IMG/VR virus record: IMGVR_UViG_3300044797_000098
Location: 1 to 64,000 of that record
Length of the DNA stretch: 64,000 bases
Source of the DNA: a virus
Direction: 5' to 3' (one strand)
The notes under the pieces: model-generated
Seen by the model: the letters and a program-made list of their open reading frames with translations, nothing else
The model's database searches: none
Told to the model about the DNA's origin: nothing
Made by a program: the position numbers and the translations under genes
Part shown: in pieces, positions 6,388-54,084 of the stretch
Position numbering within the stretch: position 1 is the stretch's first letter
How the letters are laid out: the number at the start of each line of letters is the position of its first letter

Positions 6388-6771
6388 TCATATTAGGATG
6401 AGGTATTTTTGAGCAACATCGAATGCTTTCTTATACTCGTTGTGGTAATTGTTCATCTCATCTATCAGGTAAGAGTAATCGCCCTCTTTATAGTCAGCAA
6501 CAATAATACCAAACGGATTAACTTCCATATCGTGTAATTGTTTTCCTGTAATAGGAATGGGCATCTTATTGATATCGAATCTAGTTATTGACAAGACACC
6601 GGTTAGCCATTTGCCGGGCTTATCGTGCCTATGGATGTAATCATTGCGTGTTCCATCGAAGTGCTGGCCGAGCAATAGGTAGAAACTGCTCCGCAGGAGC
6701 TTCGCTCTTCTACTTCCACTAAAATTGCCAAGGAAGATTGGCTCCCCAAACAATGGCTTTTCCATTGGCAT
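6388..6771 (-). CDS. Hypothetical protein with in-frame 24-nt repeat insert
   Basis: 127 residues from the ATG at 6771. A copy of the 24-nt palindromic repeat (6686-6711) lies in frame and encodes RRAKLLRSS near residue 21. The C-terminus ends QKYLILI, resembling the hydrophobic tails of many proteins at 48.6-54 kb. No family recognised. Confidence 0.6.
   Translation of the reverse strand: MPMEKPLFGEPIFLGNFSGSRRAKLLRSSFYLLLGQHFDGTRNDYIHRHDKPGKWLTGVLSITRFDINKMPIPITGKQLHDMEVNPFGIIVADYKEGDYSYLIDEMNNYHNEYKKAFDVAQKYLILI
6686..6711. repeat. 24-nt palindromic repeat, copy B
   Basis: GCTCCGCAGGAGC is followed by TTCGCTCTTCT, two overlapping palindromes (GCTCC/GGAGC and GAGC/GCTC). Identical units occur at 6782-6807, 7356-7381 and three in tandem at 36625-36698. 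Confidence 0.9.
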
Positions 6772-6773
6772 CT

Positions 6774-7088
6774 CTATGCTACTGCTCCGCAGGAGCTTCG
6801 CTCTTCTTCTTCGCAATCAATATCGATATACGGGATTACCAACTCACCAGCACTATCCAATTCAGAATGAAGGAAGATCGTTCCGACAACTTTCTTCTTC
6901 GTTTTATTGCCTTGATCACCAATCTCGTATTCAGCATTGAACATTGCAGTCATTCTCTTGTGTTGATTGCCAACTTCGTAGAATGTAATCGTTGGCTCAC
7001 GCTTGAATGTTGAATGCAATGCCTGCCTCAATGCTTGCTTCACACCGAAGTTAGGCGCAATGAATACATGAACGTTGGAGATGCGCAC
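6774..7088 (-). CDS. Hypothetical protein ending in the 24-nt repeat
   Basis: 104 residues from a GTG located 3 nt after the upstream stop. Its last residues (ERSSCGAVA) come from repeat copy A, so the original C-terminus was probably replaced by the insertion. No family recognised. Confidence 0.6.
   Translation of the reverse strand: MRISNVHVFIAPNFGVKQALRQALHSTFKREPTITFYEVGNQHKRMTAMFNAEYEIGDQGNKTKKKVVGTIFLHSELDSAGELVIPYIDIDCEEEERSSCGAVA
6782..6807. repeat. 24-nt palindromic repeat, copy A
   Basis: Identical to copy B. It supplies the C-terminus of the gene at 6774-7088 and sits just before the next start codon. Confidence 0.9.
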
Positions 7089-12605: not shown

Positions 12606-14402
12606 CTATGCGACTTCCATAAGGGTTTCCTCATTGCGAGCACCCTCGGGGGTTTTGGCGTCGCCTGACCGCTCGCGCTCAAGTCCGCGGTCAAGGATAT
12701 TGTTTGATGCATTCTCATCTCGATCATGTTCAACACCACAACCTTGACAAAAATACTTCAACATACCTTTGATATCATCATTGTAATAATGACATATTCC
12801 GCATTCTTTTGAAGTGCCACGAGCATCAACTTCGATATATCCTTCTGTCTTTCCTCTGCTACGCAATGCGTTCTTACACGCATTACGAAACTCACTTGGT
12901 GCAGTCAGTTGCCTATTAGTGCTTCCAGCATTACCTCGTGCAAGGTTAGACAGATTGATGTCCTCGAAAACAATCGAACCGTATTGATCAGCAAGTTTTG
13001 CTGCCAACTTACGATACTCTTCGTTTCGATATCCAACTCCGCGATTGCGTTGCGAAGAAGCCCACTGCCATAGATGGTGATCATGATATCTCCATCCCGC
13101 AATACCAGTTCCTTTTGTTAGTGTTTTCGTTTCTTTATTCCACGAACCACTAATACCATAAATCTCTTCATCTCCCGCAAAACGATTGGTTGACCATTGT
13201 TTCACCAATCTTGCAAGACGACCTTGCGATCTCCACTTATCCAAGTGTTCACATTCTTTCGTGAGCCATTCGGGCAAGTTTTCTTTTCCAGTCATCCATT
13301 CAACTAATGATTTACGAACAGCATCGAACTCCTTATCTCGAATGCTTTCGATTTCGTTAGCCTTTGATAGTGCTGCAATGACACTTGATGGGACACGAAT
13401 ATCCCATTCCTTATTATCAGTTCCTTTACCATATCCAATGCGAACCGATCCGTCTTGCATATCGCGCCAACCAAGATCAATACCAACGCACGATTGATTG
13501 TTGTGTGCAATTGTATTTTGATTGTCATTGAACGTAATAGACACCGTCCAATGTTCTCGTGCTCCAATCTTATTGCAACATACCTGTACAACCTGAATAA
13601 CGCTTCCAGTAGGAATATCACGATGATATACCATTGGAAACTCTGCCCAGATAGGCTTACGATCATTGTCGGTTCCAATACGGAGACGGAACAATCGCAA
13701 GTCTTTCTTACCAACCTTACGCATCGTTCCATCTACCTTTACAATTGGAGCAGGCATAGGAATGATCCGAACCATCTTGCTTGATGCTTCAATGCCAATG
13801 ACCTTATCAATAGGTTCATTGGGTTGAAACTGCTGAATACCAACACGACCTTCACCAAGATATGAACGGAAACGAGGATCATTCGGTTCAACACCATCAT
13901 ACAATGGCATCTTACGAGTTTTCTGAAACGCATCCTCAATCAACATATACGTTCCATACCACGGAGCAATATCACTCTTGCGAACCTCTGCAATCTTTAG
14001 GTTCGCTTGCTGATCAATAGCAGTTCGTTTTGCTTTGATATCCTCATTGCTACGAAGCAATCTGCGTGCTTCAATAAGTTTCGAGTTGATTTCTTTGCGA
14101 GCCTTCTTTGCATCCCTCAGTTCTTGCTTCATCTCATCGGTTGCAACGCGAGTGCGAGCATCCGCATTAGCTCGTTTGTTCCTCTTGTCGAACGCAATAA
14201 CCTTATCATCCGCTTCCTTTACTGCGACTTCCAGTTCAGGAATATCACCTGCTTGTCGTTCAATGGTTCGGATTTCATTTCTCCTCCATCGTTCAATCTC
14301 AATAAGTTTGTTTTGGTAATTGTGTCCCTTTCTAATCTGCTCCATAACAAGATCATGGTTCAGTGTGGGTGCCAGAAGTCCTAACTTGAAGGTGCGTGTC
14401 AT
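12606..14402 (-). CDS. cas12: Compact type V CRISPR effector (Cas12m/V-U-like)
   Basis: 598 residues. N-terminal WED/REC region with a long charged coiled coil (about 30-140), then a conserved-looking RF..YLGEGRVGIQ segment (178-190). The RuvC domain follows: D309 in GIDLG, E480 in FEDINL, a zinc ribbon (C534/C537, C552/C555) and D562 in the RDENAS motif. All three catalytic carboxylates are present, so the RuvC site looks intact. Length and layout fit Cas12m or other V-U effectors better than TnpB (about 400 aa) or the larger CasPhi; subtype is uncertain. It reads in the same direction as the array and has its own promoter. Confidence 0.88.
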   Translation of the reverse strand: MTRTFKLGLLAPTLNHDLVMEQIRKGHNYQNKLIEIERWRRNEIRTIERQAGDIPELEVAVKEADDKVIAFDKRNKRANADARTRVATDEMKQELRDAKKARKEINSKLIEARRLLRSNEDIKAKRTAIDQQANLKIAEVRKSDIAPWYGTYMLIEDAFQKTRKMPLYDGVEPNDPRFRSYLGEGRVGIQQFQPNEPIDKVIGIEASSKMVRIIPMPAPIVKVDGTMRKVGKKDLRLFRLRIGTDNDRKPIWAEFPMVYHRDIPTGSVIQVVQVCCNKIGAREHWTVSITFNDNQNTIAHNNQSCVGIDLGWRDMQDGSVRIGYGKGTDNKEWDIRVPSSVIAALSKANEIESIRDKEFDAVRKSLVEWMTGKENLPEWLTKECEHLDKWRSQGRLARLVKQWSTNRFAGDEEIYGISGSWNKETKTLTKGTGIAGWRYHDHHLWQWASSQRNRGVGYRNEEYRKLAAKLADQYGSIVFEDINLSNLARGNAGSTNRQLTAPSEFRNACKNALRSRGKTEGYIEVDARGTSKECGICHYYNDDIKGMLKYFCQGCGVEHDRDENASNNILDRGLERERSGDAKTPEGARNEETLMEVA

Positions 14403-48617: not shown

Positions 48618-48845
48618 CTACATCAATAACAATAGTTTATCTAATCGTTCCTCTGTTATATCCTCTGGCAATAAATAATCAAGAAATACACTAGGCTTGT
48701 CATCATCAGCATATTCAATAAGGGTTGATTTACTATCAATAAACGATGTAATGCAACTATCGAATTCAGCAACTGCGATTGAATCATTATATAATATATC
48801 CTGTACTATATGTAATGGTATATTAGTTAAATATATCTTTATCAA
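48618..48845 (-). CDS. Acidic protein with hydrophobic C-tail (75 aa)
   Basis: Ends in LDKLLLLM, one of several proteins in this region with such a tail. Otherwise unassigned. Confidence 0.6.
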   Translation of the reverse strand: MIKIYLTNIPLHIVQDILYNDSIAVAEFDSCITSFIDSKSTLIEYADDDKPSVFLDYLLPEDITEERLDKLLLLM

Positions 48846-49214
48846 TCATTTTGATGCCCAGTTCTTATATACCAAAATTACCCATTCTTTAAACTCTTTT
48901 ATTGTTTTATTATGTTTAGCATAATTACAAAACTTACAACAAGGAACAAGATTGCTCTTTGTATGTGGTAAATTGCTATCCACTCTATCTAATCCATTAT
49001 ATATAAATGTCCCATTAGATCTTGAATTTTCCGATGATTCTGAACTTGAAAGAAACTTGTTGTACTTTTGTTTTGGTTTAATTCCACAATAATAACATTG
49101 TTGTTGAGACAGAGTATAAAAATCATCAAAAGACAAATCATCATCTTTATATCTATCATAATAGATCTTTTTTGCACTAGAAATAATAGGTGAAAATACC
49201 TTTTTCTTTACCAT
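48846..49214 (-). CDS. HNH-type endonuclease (122 aa)
   Basis: CYYCG, then GLDRVDSN and NLVPCCKFCNYAKHNKT match phage HNH nucleases of the GLDRVD type with a zinc site. Possibly a homing endonuclease or packaging-associated HNH. Confidence 0.78.
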   Translation of the reverse strand: MVKKKVFSPIISSAKKIYYDRYKDDDLSFDDFYTLSQQQCYYCGIKPKQKYNKFLSSSESSENSRSNGTFIYNGLDRVDSNLPHTKSNLVPCCKFCNYAKHNKTIKEFKEWVILVYKNWASK

Positions 49215-49296
49215 AAATACCCTTAAATTGTTAAAATTATTAGAATGGTACCAAAATAATACGATTGGATCTCTATTATTCTTTAATATAAAAACC

Positions 49297-49953
49297 CTAT
49301 AATCCCACAGCCTTAGAAAACTCTGCCACAGCCTTACGATATTTATTGGGATTATATTGCTTTAATACATTAAACATATTCTTCATATTTAACATATCAG
49401 TTGCAGGACTAGATTGATCGATGATATTATCCCACTCCATAGCTTTCTGTTCTTTGGTTTTAAGAGATTTAGTTTTAATATTATTTTTAAAAATTGGTAT
49501 AATTTTTTGTTCCATTAAATCAAAAAACCTTTGCACCGGAACATGTCTTACCCAAGATAACATATAATCTCTATGAAGGGAAACCGGTATAAATTTTTTA
49601 TATCTATTAAAATCATTAACCGAATCCGTAAGATTAGTATAGAACTCATGATCATCAAGAACATGCGCTTCATTGGAAACTCCAACATTACTATAATTTT
49701 CTTGATCATATTCTAAATCACGAATTTTATTGGATGGTAATCCACCATGCTTACCAGTAATATGTTTTATGAATGATTGCATAAAATGTTGCAACTCATG
49801 TCTCGCAATATCTTTTATATTTTCAATCGTATATTGTAAAATTTCCAATGTTCTGGCTAACTGGAAGTTCTTTTTGATATCTGCCTTGATTATTATCCTG
49901 CCAATTACGAACTCATTCTTAGCATTGGTAACTCTTGGCCACTCCTGCCACAT
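49297..49953 (-). CDS. HExxH-containing protein (218 aa)
   Basis: IARHELQHFMQSF contains an HELQH zinc-peptidase-type motif in a helix (about residues 53-60). The rest is helical and lysine-rich. No clear family, and the third zinc ligand is not identified. Confidence 0.55.
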   Translation of the reverse strand: MWQEWPRVTNAKNEFVIGRIIIKADIKKNFQLARTLEILQYTIENIKDIARHELQHFMQSFIKHITGKHGGLPSNKIRDLEYDQENYSNVGVSNEAHVLDDHEFYTNLTDSVNDFNRYKKFIPVSLHRDYMLSWVRHVPVQRFFDLMEQKIIPIFKNNIKTKSLKTKEQKAMEWDNIIDQSSPATDMLNMKNMFNVLKQYNPNKYRKAVAEFSKAVGL

Positions 49954-49980
49954 CCCACCCCAATTGAGATCTTTTGTAAG

Positions 49981-50262
49981 TTAAATCAGTAACATAATTG
50001 TGTTATATAAATTAATATATTGGGGGAAATGATATAAAATTGCGATATGGCAGTATTCTATTTTATCATTATATTTAGAAGATAAGCATTTCATAATATA
50101 AGACTTAATTTGTGAATTGGAATGACAATAAGATATTTCATCCGTTGATAGAATAATATAACACGTTGCTGAATAGGGATTGTTATAGAGAGCAGTATTA
50201 GCGTCGTTGAGCCAGCATGAATTACAGGGTTTAGACGGACTGAAGTCCTTGCAAGTTTTCAT
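49981..50262 (-). CDS. Cys-rich protein with hydrophobic C-tail (93 aa)
   Basis: CKDFSPSKPCNSC near the N-terminus, then AILYHFPQYINLYNTIMLLI. The Pro-aromatic-x5-hydrophobic end is shared with neighbours. Confidence 0.6.
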   Translation of the reverse strand: MKTCKDFSPSKPCNSCWLNDANTALYNNPYSATCYIILSTDEISYCHSNSQIKSYIMKCLSSKYNDKIEYCHIAILYHFPQYINLYNTIMLLI

Positions 50263-50953
50263 TATTGTATTGGTTAAATACTTTAATGAATGCTAGACTA
50301 ATAGTAAGGAGTTTCTTTTTATTAGATTTGGATAACTTGAAATTGTTATCTTGGAGGAAAGGCATGCCTGTTGCGAGATAGGCTTGAATCTCATCTGTAT
50401 ATACTTTTGGCGTATAACCTTTGGTTTTTAACCAATGTGTGATTGATAATTTAATATCTTTTGGAATAGATTTTACGAGAGAAATCATAGCAGATTTATA
50501 GATCTTATTCGTATAGAAAAATCCGTGAGCCAACTCATGATTTATAGTTATATTATCTTTTTTTATGGAACCAATAAGATAAAAATCTTGGGAGGATTTT
50601 TTACAATGTTTATAGATATTAAGCAATTCATAATCATATATATTACGATCTGGAATCATAAGATTATGAACTTTTGGAATTATATCACCCGGAATATTAA
50701 ATCCATTCCAATCAGATGGATATGTAAATGATCCATTACCATATTTTTTTGAATACCAGCGCATAAAAGAAAGAATCGTGAAAGATTTATTGCGAAACTT
50801 CGGAGAGGACGATTCATAAAACTCTTGATAACGAAGAAAATACATGCAAAGATCATAACGATCTTGAAATGTTAAATGAAATATATTTGGTTTAATTTCT
50901 TTTAAGGTGTAATTTGCGGTTTTCATATCAGGACAATTACCTTTTCTAACCAT
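50231..50953 (-). CDS. HExxH-containing protein (240 aa)
   Basis: NHELAHGFFY gives an HELAH metallopeptidase-type motif (about residue 139). Overlaps the next gene by 32 nt. Family unknown. Confidence 0.55.
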   Translation of the reverse strand: MVRKGNCPDMKTANYTLKEIKPNIFHLTFQDRYDLCMYFLRYQEFYESSSPKFRNKSFTILSFMRWYSKKYGNGSFTYPSDWNGFNIPGDIIPKVHNLMIPDRNIYDYELLNIYKHCKKSSQDFYLIGSIKKDNITINHELAHGFFYTNKIYKSAMISLVKSIPKDIKLSITHWLKTKGYTPKVYTDEIQAYLATGMPFLQDNNFKLSKSNKKKLLTISLAFIKVFNQYNNENLQGLQSV

Positions 50954-51195
50954 TCTATGTATTCTGGATAATATAATTTTATTGCTTCTTTTAGATATAT
51001 GAAATAATCACCTTCGAATCCCTCGGTTTTTATTATGGTTTTAATATAACTTTTCATATTATTTTTATCTTTTAAATCGAACTCATCCTTCCACCATTCA
51101 ATCCAGCATTTAGATTGAACCAGAGTGGATATGTCATGGTTTTTTTGCCATGTACATACGAAACATAATGGTATATTTAAAGATTTACAAAACAT
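50923..51195 (-). CDS. Protein with hydrophobic C-tail (90 aa)
   Basis: Cysteines near the start (CKS, CFVC, KCW) and the end KLYYPEYIEWLEKVIVLI. Confidence 0.6.
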   Translation of the reverse strand: MFCKSLNIPLCFVCTWQKNHDISTLVQSKCWIEWWKDEFDLKDKNNMKSYIKTIIKTEGFEGDYFIYLKEAIKLYYPEYIEWLEKVIVLI

Positions 51196-51211
51196 TGTTA
51201 TATATTAGTGT

Positions 51212-51508
51212 ATGAGAAAAGTTGTTATTGAGTATGTGAAAAAAAGTTTGAGGAGAGTTTGGGGGCGGAGCAAGCAAAGGAATGGTGCATTGAAGAGCGC
51301 TAAGGTTGAGAGAGGAAAGTATAGATGCGCTTGCTGCGGGAAAGTGTTCAGGCGAAAAGATATCGAAGTTGATCATAAAATTGCCGTGGGGCGGTTTGTT
51401 GATTTCGATACGTACATTGAAAGGTTGTTCGTGGATACGAAAGGGCTCCAAGTATTATGCAAAGGATGCCATAAAATTAAAACTAAAAAAGATGTAAAAT
51501 CATTTTAG
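51212..51508 (+). CDS. HNH endonuclease (98 aa)
   Basis: CACCG, EVDHK, then LCKGCHKIKT make the HNH/zinc-finger core. It is the only plus-strand gene in this block, overlapping the end of 51500-51808, so it may be an inserted homing-type gene. Confidence 0.78.
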   Translation: MRKVVIEYVKKSLRRVWGRSKQRNGALKSAKVERGKYRCACCGKVFRRKDIEVDHKIAVGRFVDFDTYIERLFVDTKGLQVLCKGCHKIKTKKDVKSF

Positions 51509-51808
51509 GATTCTAAATTTATCCGCTTCCTCCTCCGTAATCATTGTGAATGTAATACCGGCGATTGAAAAATATGGCATATCATCTTTTGTCCTACCCG
51601 AAATTGCACATCGTATTATATTATTGGGACTTCTGGCATAAGCATCATTAACCAATCTAATATAATCTTTTGCTGGTAAAAGAAAGTCATATTCGCCAGT
51701 TGTTTCAGCATAATACATTATAACGTATAATGAATATCCATCATTCGTATATACTGATTTTGCCAGTAATGTTTTGGCAACAATATCTTCATCTATATAT
51801 TTTTTCAT
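51500..51808 (-). CDS. Hypothetical protein (102 aa)
   Basis: Beta-alpha protein with no known motif; ends EEADKFRILK. Confidence 0.6.
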   Translation of the reverse strand: MKKYIDEDIVAKTLLAKSVYTNDGYSLYVIMYYAETTGEYDFLLPAKDYIRLVNDAYARSPNNIIRCAISGRTKDDMPYFSIAGITFTMITEEEADKFRILK

Positions 51809-52041
51809 AGCAACACGAGTAATTTATCGAGATCGTTTTTTAGATGAGGAAAATCTCTGTTAATAACTTCAATCGCATATTCGATCATAGGAACGCCCTG
51901 CTCCTGACCAATCATATTGAATGTTGAGATCATTACATTCATTGCTTTTTTTTGTTCTTCAATACCTTCAACCTCATACATAATTTGACAAATTGATTTC
52001 TTAAAGTTTTTTACGAGCCTTTGGATTTTTTTGTTCGTCAT
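51805..52041 (-). CDS. Protein with hydrophobic C-tail (78 aa)
   Basis: Helical; ends FPHLKNDLDKLLVLL. Overlaps the next gene (ATGA-type). Confidence 0.62.
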   Translation of the reverse strand: MTNKKIQRLVKNFKKSICQIMYEVEGIEEQKKAMNVMISTFNMIGQEQGVPMIEYAIEVINRDFPHLKNDLDKLLVLL

Positions 52042-52087
52042 GTTAATATGATACTTTCCATTTAATTTATTCGTAGTAGGGCCAAAA

Positions 52088-52318
52088 TTATATTAATATA
52101 ATATATTTTCTAAAAGATTCTTCTAAATGTGGGTAATAGTAAATTGCGATAGATAGTAAATCATTTGAAATTAATGCATCATTGTAGATTTTGTTATAAT
52201 TTATGAAAGTTTTAATTCTATCCTTATCATCGATGCAATCGATTAAATCAGTAGCAAGTTTGTAGAAAATAACATTATTCCATTGACCAATAATTTTATT
52301 CATTGTAAATCGTTTCAT
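52088..52318 (-). CDS. Protein with hydrophobic C-tail (76 aa)
   Basis: Helical; ends YYPHLEESFRKYIILI. Closest in style to 51805-52041. Confidence 0.62.
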   Translation of the reverse strand: MKRFTMNKIIGQWNNVIFYKLATDLIDCIDDKDRIKTFINYNKIYNDALISNDLLSIAIYYYPHLEESFRKYIILI

Positions 52319-52857
52319 CTCAATAATAAGATTGAATTTATTTTAGAAAACAACTTATCTTTATCTTGGAAATTGAGTTTTTCAAATGGGATATATTGTA
52401 TATCTATTTTTTTGTCATCGCATACAATAAATGATGTTTTATTGGAAAAATTATTTACGACTGTATAATATTTATTATTGTAATAAAATTTAAAATATTC
52501 TAAAAGAGACTGTGTGTTGAATGCACTATAAGGTCTATCATAAAAAATATTAATAGATCTTGAAAATGTTTCGAGTGGTTGATTGCAGTTTTTACAAGTT
52601 TTTTCTAAAATGATATCTAATTCATACAGAGACGTAAATACATCGGTCGAACTATCATGCATTATACGGCCGTCAATAATAGAAATAGAAAACTGATGTA
52701 TATCGGTTTTTGAATCTATAAAATAATCAGTTTTATATCTGATAGTCAATTTATTATTTGATATTATGATTTTATCTGCTTGGGTGGATGTTATTAATAA
52801 ATCATTATCACACAATGGACAACGCTGATATTCATATATGAACTGTTTTAGATCCAT
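52315..52857 (-). CDS. CPLC zinc-motif family protein (180 aa)
   Basis: CPLC (about residues 13-16) and CKNC later; ends DKLFSKINSILLLR. First of three tandem proteins with this layout. Confidence 0.62.
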   Translation of the reverse strand: MDLKQFIYEYQRCPLCDNDLLITSTQADKIIISNNKLTIRYKTDYFIDSKTDIHQFSISIIDGRIMHDSSTDVFTSLYELDIILEKTCKNCNQPLETFSRSINIFYDRPYSAFNTQSLLEYFKFYYNNKYYTVVNNFSNKTSFIVCDDKKIDIQYIPFEKLNFQDKDKLFSKINSILLLR

Positions 52858-52862
52858 TTAAA

Positions 52863-53555
52863 TTATTTATCCATCAAAAGAAAAATTGAATCAATTCTAG
52901 AAAATATTTTTTTAGGATTTTCAAATTTAAAATAATCATCATCTACAAGATTAAGTCTTTTTTCTTTGTAAAAATTATGTGCATTGGAGCCATCGATACT
53001 CATTTCTGCAAGAGCAAATGATGTTTTAAATATGTTATAGTCATTTATAATTTTAATTTGCTTACCTATGCCTTTATCTATGGTATATAATTTATATATT
53101 TCGTGATAGATTTGGAGTTCAACTATACCAAAAACATAACTTCCATCATCATTTTTCCTTATATCTGAATCTGTTGCTATAAAATCGCCCTTTGCTTCGT
53201 ATTCGCAAATATTTGTGAGTTCATTAATACAAGAGATTTTTAAATTGAAGAAAGATAGACTACCATCAAAACTTGCAGTTAAACTATTATCGGCTATATT
53301 TATTTGAGTTTGCAATTTTTCTATATTGATTATTTGAGTTTCGCCCGGTTTGAATTTAACAGATATGGTTTCAGACATATTATCCAATCCATCAAAAATA
53401 TTATCAAATCGATTTTTTAATTTTGATGCTTCATTAGTTTTATGATCAATATAAATCGTGGTATATATATCGTATTCTAATACATTGGAACAAATAGGGC
53501 AAGTACTACGATATTCTATTAATTTTGGAAATGAATCGAACTCTCGTGCTGTCAT
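52863..53555 (-). CDS. CPIC zinc-motif family protein (230 aa)
   Basis: CPIC near residue 19 and a C-terminal end KIFSRIDSIFLLMDK like that of 52315-52857. Beta-rich middle. Confidence 0.62.
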   Translation of the reverse strand: MTAREFDSFPKLIEYRSTCPICSNVLEYDIYTTIYIDHKTNEASKLKNRFDNIFDGLDNMSETISVKFKPGETQIINIEKLQTQINIADNSLTASFDGSLSFFNLKISCINELTNICEYEAKGDFIATDSDIRKNDDGSYVFGIVELQIYHEIYKLYTIDKGIGKQIKIINDYNIFKTSFALAEMSIDGSNAHNFYKEKRLNLVDDDYFKFENPKKIFSRIDSIFLLMDK

Positions 53556-53556
53556 T

Positions 53557-54084
53557 TTAACCTAATAATTGAATAATTTTTAGTTTTTTGTCTATAAGTT
53601 TTTTTGACGAAAAATCAAAATCGATTAATGGCATTGTTATTGTTTTTGTCAAATAATTTGATGTTATATGAATTGTTGAAATAGAGTTATTAAAATCGTT
53701 ATTAACGATGAAATGAACCGAATCTGCTAGCATTCTTACGATATGATTTTTTTCCAGTATTATATTGTCTATAAGTAATTTATCTTTTAATAAATCACAA
53801 GTCCCAGAATAATAAAAATGATATTTATTACACTGACGGCCAATAATTAATTTAGGCACATCAGGACTAATAAATTGTAAATAATTTTCTATTATATTAT
53901 TATTGAATAGATCGATTAATATTTTTTTATTTGAGTCTTGTTGAAAAACTGTTAAATAACTATTGTTTAGCTCACAGCCAGACATTCCGGATAATGTTAT
54001 TATTGGTTCGGTTCTCTTTTTGCACAACGGGCAAAATTCAATAAAATTAAAAAAATCAAATAAATTATTAAATTGTTGAGCCAC
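53557..54084 (-). CDS. CPLC zinc-motif family protein (175 aa)
   Basis: CPLC near residue 18; ends DKKLKIIQLLG. Third member of the family. Confidence 0.62.
   Translation of the reverse strand: MAQQFNNLFDFFNFIEFCPLCKKRTEPIITLSGMSGCELNNSYLTVFQQDSNKKILIDLFNNNIIENYLQFISPDVPKLIIGRQCNKYHFYYSGTCDLLKDKLLIDNIILEKNHIVRMLADSVHFIVNNDFNNSISTIHITSNYLTKTITMPLIDFDFSSKKLIDKKLKIIQLLG

Follow-up and report, generated by a model that had tools for sequence, protein, structure and literature searches.

Why should a run of small and otherwise dissimilar phage proteins all end in nearly the same few residues? The question is raised by positions 48,618-54,084 of the window, the 64,000-nucleotide stretch of DNA analysed here, which comprises bases 1-64000 of the 406,470-bp IMG/VR virus record IMGVR_UViG_3300044797_000098 (hereafter G000). 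The original prediction was that eight proteins of this segment, together with a ninth whose gene ends at 6388, carry a shared hydrophobic C-terminal tail on differing bodies; it offered as possible functions a targeting, cargo-loading or degradation tag, or a common interaction helix. Here, we find strong support for a C-terminal element common to otherwise unrelated small proteins, and we put at about one half the probability that this tail is a docking helix which couples fast-evolving accessory proteins to one common partner.

G000 represents an uncultured jumbo phage of the tailed type, in which terminase and endonuclease VII genes were found; its terminase has only a distant similarity (~25% identity) to those of cultured phages. 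The rest of the record was read in pieces, and its genes were called with a simple codon model that gave 526 genes. The gene calls are our own, and the three main records used below are metagenomic, two of them being fragments.

A C-terminal tail on many kinds of small protein

The tail was sought genome-wide with a position matrix covering the ten C-terminal residues and built up by iteration from a strict seed, the threshold being the score reached by 1 in 1000 internal 10-mers of the same proteins. It terminates 69 of the 526 called genes of G000, where 0.53 would be expected, and ~17 further open reading frames (ORFs) of the same, minus strand that lie outside the gene set; there are very few on the plus strand. 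IMG/VR was scanned at the DNA level for the pattern [DE]xΦ[DE]KYLΦLΦ-stop, and the records with several matches were IMGVR_UViG_3300031595_000166 (G006, 157 kb) and IMGVR_UViG_3300035696_000016 (G007, 120 kb), which have 97 and 52 tail ORFs against 1.06 and 0.77 expected, respectively. A partial contig, G015, has five tails over the threshold, four of them convincing. Two more distant terminase relatives, the partial contigs G003 (85 kb, AT-rich) and G005 (194 kb), have none among their 376 and 1,263 ORFs. Clusters of tail matches occurred only in G006 and G007 in the scans of viral contigs, and the scan of bacteria and archaea (116 stretches, 80 of them listed) gave a single isolated match per contig, which looks like chance. 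Within the collections scanned the tail appears to be confined to one phage clade. The internal 10-mers, the non-gene ORFs and the tail-less relatives rule out an artefact of AT-rich composition; three candidates (235268, 35650 and G006_5220) were judged to be false tails.

The tail genes are also restricted to the lineage-specific half of the genome. In G000, they concentrate at 250-390 kb and at 48-56 kb, both lineage-specific stretches, and avoid 102-222 kb, which holds the terminase and many genes common to the tail-less relatives. The genes with homologs in those relatives, such as terminase, DnaJ, trigger factor and DNA topoisomerase, concentrate at ~160-260 kb.

When the 241 tailed proteins of the three records were trimmed of their last 14 residues and clustered by BLAST with extension by hidden Markov models (HMMs), the bodies fell into 60 clusters, some of which may be distant homologs since the clustering was by sequence only. 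The largest are a zinc-ribbon family (51 members), the "MFxK..DTDF" family (39), a family of DGPA repeats (26), and the LSPW (22) and LEWK (15) families, followed by groups of six and five members, many pairs and singletons. The main families differ in their predicted fold or type of repeat. Nearly all of the proteins are small: their median length is 93 amino acids (aa), the maximum is 301, and 212 of the 241 have no more than 130. Pfam gave no match of weight for ten representative bodies and the window proteins tested, an HNH neighbour excepted; PHROGs gave single weak matches only, for the two largest (aligned) families; and sequence searches of PDB gave only weak matches for the tailed bodies.

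The consensus of the tail is E-x-Φ-[ED]-K-[LY]-L-Φ-L-x-stop. Conservation was computed with one representative per body cluster, 56 clusters being left after removal of the doubtful ones. Leu is found at -2 in 55 of these, Lys at -6 in 43 and Glu at -10 in 27; because the members were picked by the same matrix, these exact fractions are inflated, which does not hold for the excess over background. The most informative positions are -2 (Leu), -6 (Lys), -5 (Leu/Tyr), -3 (L/V/I/M) and -4 (Leu/Met), and Glu/Asp stands at -10 and -7; of the ten positions, -2 and -6 are conserved most and -1 least. Such recurrence across clusters, even if partly due to selection, is not that of a normal domain shared by homologous proteins only, an account that is also contradicted by the tail-less homologs of the tailed DGPA family.

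The final residue is I in 69 of the 241 proteins, K in 44, L in 30, V in 26, Q in 23 and M in 20, with others in the remainder, and none ends in -AA. This variability argues against recognition of the carboxy-terminal residue itself, as occurs with ssrA tags and PDZ ligands. A transmembrane-like C-terminus (19-residue window, Kyte-Doolittle >1.6, last 24 residues) was found in 0 of the 241, and a signal-peptide-like hydrophobic stretch at the N-terminus in just three, which together argue against a sortase-like signal.

The tail is conserved as a protein sequence and, in diverged pairs, it is held harder than the body to which it is attached. Tail and body identities were compared in reciprocal-best ortholog pairs grouped by overall identity. 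In the 0-60% class, where the bodies are ~45% identical, the tails are 83% identical between G000 and G006 (9 pairs) and 89% between G000 and G007 (5 pairs). Synonymous sites in these pairs are saturated and the tail codons vary freely while the amino acids are kept; the constraint is therefore on the protein sequence. In the 60-85% class, the tail exceeds the body in 15 of 16 G000-G007 pairs (Wilcoxon 6e-5), and there is no difference in the G000-G006 pairs. In control small genes the effect is weaker among the most diverged pairs and absent from the middle class.

Within some families the tail is constant, being retained in all 39 DTDF and all 15 LEWK HMM hits. The DGPA family behaves differently: four of its G006 proteins have no tail and end ...DPCDGKEVEIDGKKYKLTAI, whereas the tailed ones end ...YWINGNYIPQLDNKHIYGKENLQKYLILI, and both of these divergent ends follow the same HREDGPAxEYANG repeat. 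The DGPA proteins of Celeribacter phage P12053L, Agrobacterium phage Atu_ph07 and Pseudomonas phage MIJ3 have a homologous repeat body (39-59% identity over the matched part), but their end sequences are different and tail-less, that of P12053L resembling the tail-less G006 type. The existence of tail-less DGPA proteins both in other phages and in the same genome indicates that the tail is a transplantable, separable module.

Two variants of the tail may be added. In the LSPW family, eight members in G000 and G007 (the G000 genes being 260894, 261160, 313968, 314231 and 314478) have a tail ~four residues shorter, TEEQMLLI or TEETMLLL, which still ends in LLI or LLL; this natural variant is of use in delimiting the minimal motif. 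At 96351-96794 (-) of G006 there is a fused double zinc-ribbon protein whose first copy ends LDKERIEKLLFITMNKMNCE, which suggests that a stop codon was lost and that an internal tail is decaying.

The tails of the window

All nine of the C-termini on which the original prediction was based are present at their stop positions, and all three stop codons are used among them. They were scored with a position matrix trained only on tails from outside the window, against a background of 96,547 internal 10-mers of the same proteome. Five are strong (48618, 50923, 51805, 52088 and 6388), three are marginal (49981, 52315 and 52863) and that at 53557 is unsupported; a further strong tail, at 51500, had been overlooked. 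The genes concerned and their neighbours are as follows.

48618..48845, minus strand: 75-aa protein ending TEERLDKLLLLM; strong tail, score 22.6, no internal 10-mer as high
48846..49214, minus strand: tail-less neighbour, endonuclease VII-like HNH protein (phrog_1035, 1.5e-18)
49297..49953, minus strand: tail-less neighbour, no function assigned
49981..50262, minus strand: 93-aa Cys-rich protein (MKTCKDFSPSKPCNSCW...) ending FPQYINLYNTIMLLI; marginal tail, P 1.1e-3
50231..50953, minus strand: tail-less neighbour, no function assigned
50923..51195, minus strand: 90-aa protein ending YPEYIEWLEKVIVLI; strong tail, P 4e-5
51500..51808, minus strand: 102-aa protein ending ITEEEADKFRILK; strong tail, P 2e-5
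51805..52041, minus strand: 78-aa helical protein ending FPHLKNDLDKLLVLL; strong tail, no internal 10-mer as high
52088..52318, minus strand: 76-aa protein ending YPHLEESFRKYIILI; strong tail, P 2e-5
52315..52857, minus strand: 180-aa protein with CPLC...CKNC zinc-type motifs, ending SKINSILLLR; marginal tail, P 4e-3
52863..53555, minus strand: 230-aa zinc-ribbon-family protein (family HMM E 5.8e-6) ending SRIDSIFLLMDK; marginal tail lying two residues short of the stop, P 1.1e-3 at offset 2
53557..54084, minus strand: 175-aa protein with a CPLC motif, ending KLKIIQLLG; tail indistinguishable from chance, P 0.01-0.02
6388..6816, minus strand: protein in the GC-richer part of the record, start codon uncertain, ending AFDVAQKYLILI; strong tail, no internal 10-mer scoring as high

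The N-terminus of the 49981 protein resembles a CKDLxIxLCxxC family, and the body of the 50923 protein clusters with those of 329426 of G000, G006_8785/9060 and G007_3207. The aromatic-Pro pair that had been noted ahead of many of the tails is real, in the form [aromatic]-Pro-[HEQ]-[LY], but it belongs to one subset (the PHL...IDKLMVLI type) and is not general to the tail; the subset also includes genes at 93303, 222294, 261402, 280481, 327791 and 329426, with F, Y or R before the Pro. The segment is one among many small tail clusters and is not the largest, others in G000 lying at 289-296, 313-334, 355-366 and 371-372 kb.

The relatives also clarify the structure of the record. In gene content, G007 is syntenic with 217-330 kb of G000, and G006 with 330-406 kb and then with parts of 0-28 kb, an order which suggests that the genome is probably circular. 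Positions 1-47000 of the window have a G+C (GC) content of 0.39-0.48, against ~0.25-0.38 in the remainder; synteny of their genes with 140-157 kb of G006 indicates that they are a genuine, compositionally distinct part of the genome. At ~87000-140000, G006 encodes dozens of small zinc-ribbon proteins in a large tandem array; they have CPxC...H and end in the tail LDEERIEKLLLLK. The G000 record seems to be without this ~50-kb stretch (~87-140 kb of G006), the array perhaps having been lost at the assembly ends. Two other genes of G000 deserve mention: at 12606-14402 (-), in the window, a 598-aa protein whose C-terminal part is transposase-like (phrog_506, 1.8e-21) and, at 322622-325162 (-), a UvrD-type helicase with an apparent intein insertion (CVDENTILQIEDG...GNDILSHN).

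What the tail may do

AlphaFold was run with family alignments on two unrelated folds, those of the DTDF and zinc families. The DTDF model has three strands and four helices, the last of which (86-95) is the tail; the zinc-family model has four strands and one terminal helix (59-68), which again is the tail. The mean predicted local distance difference test score (pLDDT) of the final blocks is 93 and 96, respectively, and in these models the tail is predicted to be ordered and probably rests on its own body. A fold search of PDB gave no relative at E<=0.001 for either model, and among predicted viral structures there was no significant relative of the DTDF model. On a helical wheel, positions -8, -5 and -4 fall on one face, and the conserved -10, -7, -6 and -3 and the near-invariant -2 lie elsewhere.

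Among the functions originally offered, a common interaction helix fits best, given the confident terminal helix of both models. We envisage an encoded, transplantable C-terminal docking helix of ~10-14 residues, with T/D as the N-cap followed by E-x-Φ-[ED]-K-[LY]-L-Φ-L-x-COOH, that an uncultured jumbo-phage lineage would have fixed onto many of its small lineage-specific accessory proteins. The -8/-5/-4 face of the helix would probably pack against the protein's own body, and in the infected cell a single partner common to all carriers would read the conserved and otherwise unaccounted-for surface made up of E-10, E/D-7, K-6, Φ-3 and L-2. The bodies (zinc-ribbon sheets, DTDF α/β, DGPA repeats, LSPW, LEWK and helical) diversify fast and would supply the individual target specificities. 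Taken together, this would amount to a plug-in set, with many target binders and a single shared connector.

The simplest alternative is that the tail is just the last core helix of each domain, similar through distant paralogy or convergence, and has no common partner. A very confident terminal helix in two models, a -8/-5/-4 packing face and tail subtypes that track the body families are all what such capping would produce. It accords poorly, however, with the diversity of the body classes (a four-stranded zinc sheet, three strands plus helices, DGPA repeats; 60 clusters in all), with DGPA domains that occur without a tail and with the placing of a solvent-type residue, Lys, at -6 in most of the clusters; a helix that merely capped its own domain should not require a recurrent Lys and Glu across unrelated folds. 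We consider this alternative unlikely.

Several observations nonetheless weigh against the docking proposal. The face of the helix taken to be exposed was assigned from the helical wheel, and the high-confidence helix in two families means that a part of the conservation may serve folding only. Since the subtypes (KYLMLI, KLLLLK and RHYKLLILQ) track the body families, more than one reader may exist, or each family may simply have inherited its own form by descent. The genome used to train the matrix was also the one in which the tail was first counted, an objection that the counts in G006 and G007 and the training outside the window answer only in part. The selection of ortholog pairs with both members over the threshold inflates tail identity, and the pairs in which one member has a tail and the other none are few (8), several of them involving spurious ORFs.

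Finally, no co-occurring reader gene has been established. Trigger factor (PF05697; G000 237107-238348 (-)) and a DnaJ with its C-terminal domain (PF01556; 222927-223898 (-)) are both also present in G003, G005 and G007; as G003 and G005 are tail-less, neither gene tracks the tail and both were rejected as its specific reader. A phage-encoded trigger factor seems, in itself, unusual. A MoxR-like AAA ATPase with a VWA protein (307082 and 303254) occurs in G000 and G007 and not in the partial contigs G003 and G005, but it is missing from the G006 contig; the pair was set aside as a reader and is a suggestive lead only.

The tag functions received no positive support, and the variable last residue, the lack of a membrane segment and the tail-less terminase block count to some degree against them. 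As a C-terminal degron, the tail would let a host protease keep the accessory proteins short-lived, with their dose set by synthesis. Hydrophobic C-termini are classic protease signals (ssrA/ClpXP, Tsp, FtsH), and the carriers are all small proteins of kinds that might be used transiently. But no position of the ten is less conserved than the last, -AA is never found, the tail is predicted to be ordered and helical rather than extended, no ClpP was found in the G000 record and the tail is on no recognisable enzyme, all of which makes a degron improbable. Much the same doubt attaches to an assembly tag, by which tails would bind each other or a scaffold in a mixed complex, or bring their carriers inside the capsid as internal proteins. 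Self-pairing of a short hydrophobic helix is conceivable, and phage T4 has a capsid-targeting sequence on several internal proteins; the T4-type signals, however, are N-terminal and cleaved, and the tail genes avoid the conserved block with the terminase and the genes common to tail-less relatives, which also weakens the suggestion that the tail be checked against the major structural proteins.

An element acting in DNA or RNA, for example in translational coupling to an overlapping next gene, and encoding hydrophobic residues only incidentally, is scarcely credible: although an overlap with, or close contact to, the next start is more frequent in tail genes (30/75 vs 73/361), as is a TGA stop, the ATGA overlap accounting in part for the -1 residue, there are also tails followed by TAA or TAG where nothing overlaps, and the contrast of nonsynonymous and synonymous change (dN/dS), with free codons, saturated synonymous sites and conserved amino acids, largely refutes it.

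Counterparts and implications

C-terminal regions that mark many unrelated proteins of one genome for one cognate machine are familiar from the PEP-CTERM, LPXTG and type IX secretion signals. The first two, however, depend on a signal peptide together with a transmembrane segment and a basic terminus, and the C-terminal transmembrane helix and signal peptide of such sorting signals are not features of the tailed proteins; the signal for type IX secretion is longer, a domain carried by secreted proteins.

The docking proposal is closer in its logic to adaptor tails, in which, as here, the same module stands on different N-terminal bodies and can be separated from them and transferred. The PRANC proteins of poxviruses combine, within one virus, a shared C-terminal recruiting module with variable N-terminal target binders (PMC9414399). 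The likeness is an analogy in the manner of working only: the PRANC module is a larger eukaryotic F-box-like domain bound by Skp1 and occurs on one body type (ankyrin repeats), whereas the phage tail has ~10-14 residues and dozens of body types. The ClpX-binding tail (XB) of the adaptor SspB is a short C-terminal peptide that attaches to a single AAA+ machine and is transferable to other proteins (PMC12373786); it is found on one host adaptor rather than on a hundred phage proteins, and here too the likeness is in logic and not in sequence. The one-module-many-bodies principle thus has analogues, but the sequence system itself appears to be new: no family, fold or phage precedent was found for it, and no report of such a phage motif was found in the open-access literature searched.

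A bolder and more tentative extension of the docking proposal is that ~100 proteins per genome form a plug-in system onto a single machine of host or phage, for example a protease, a chaperone or the transcription machinery; such a system would be a prokaryotic counterpart of the poxvirus ankyrin/F-box arsenal. The small accessory genes of jumbo phages are mostly orphans that have been studied singly. A shared connector, if true, would place ~100 such orphans in a single pathway at one stroke and would identify the cellular machine into which this lineage plugs. Comparison of position-fixed C-terminal motifs with their internal background is, moreover, a cheap search criterion which could reveal other tags in uncultured phages.

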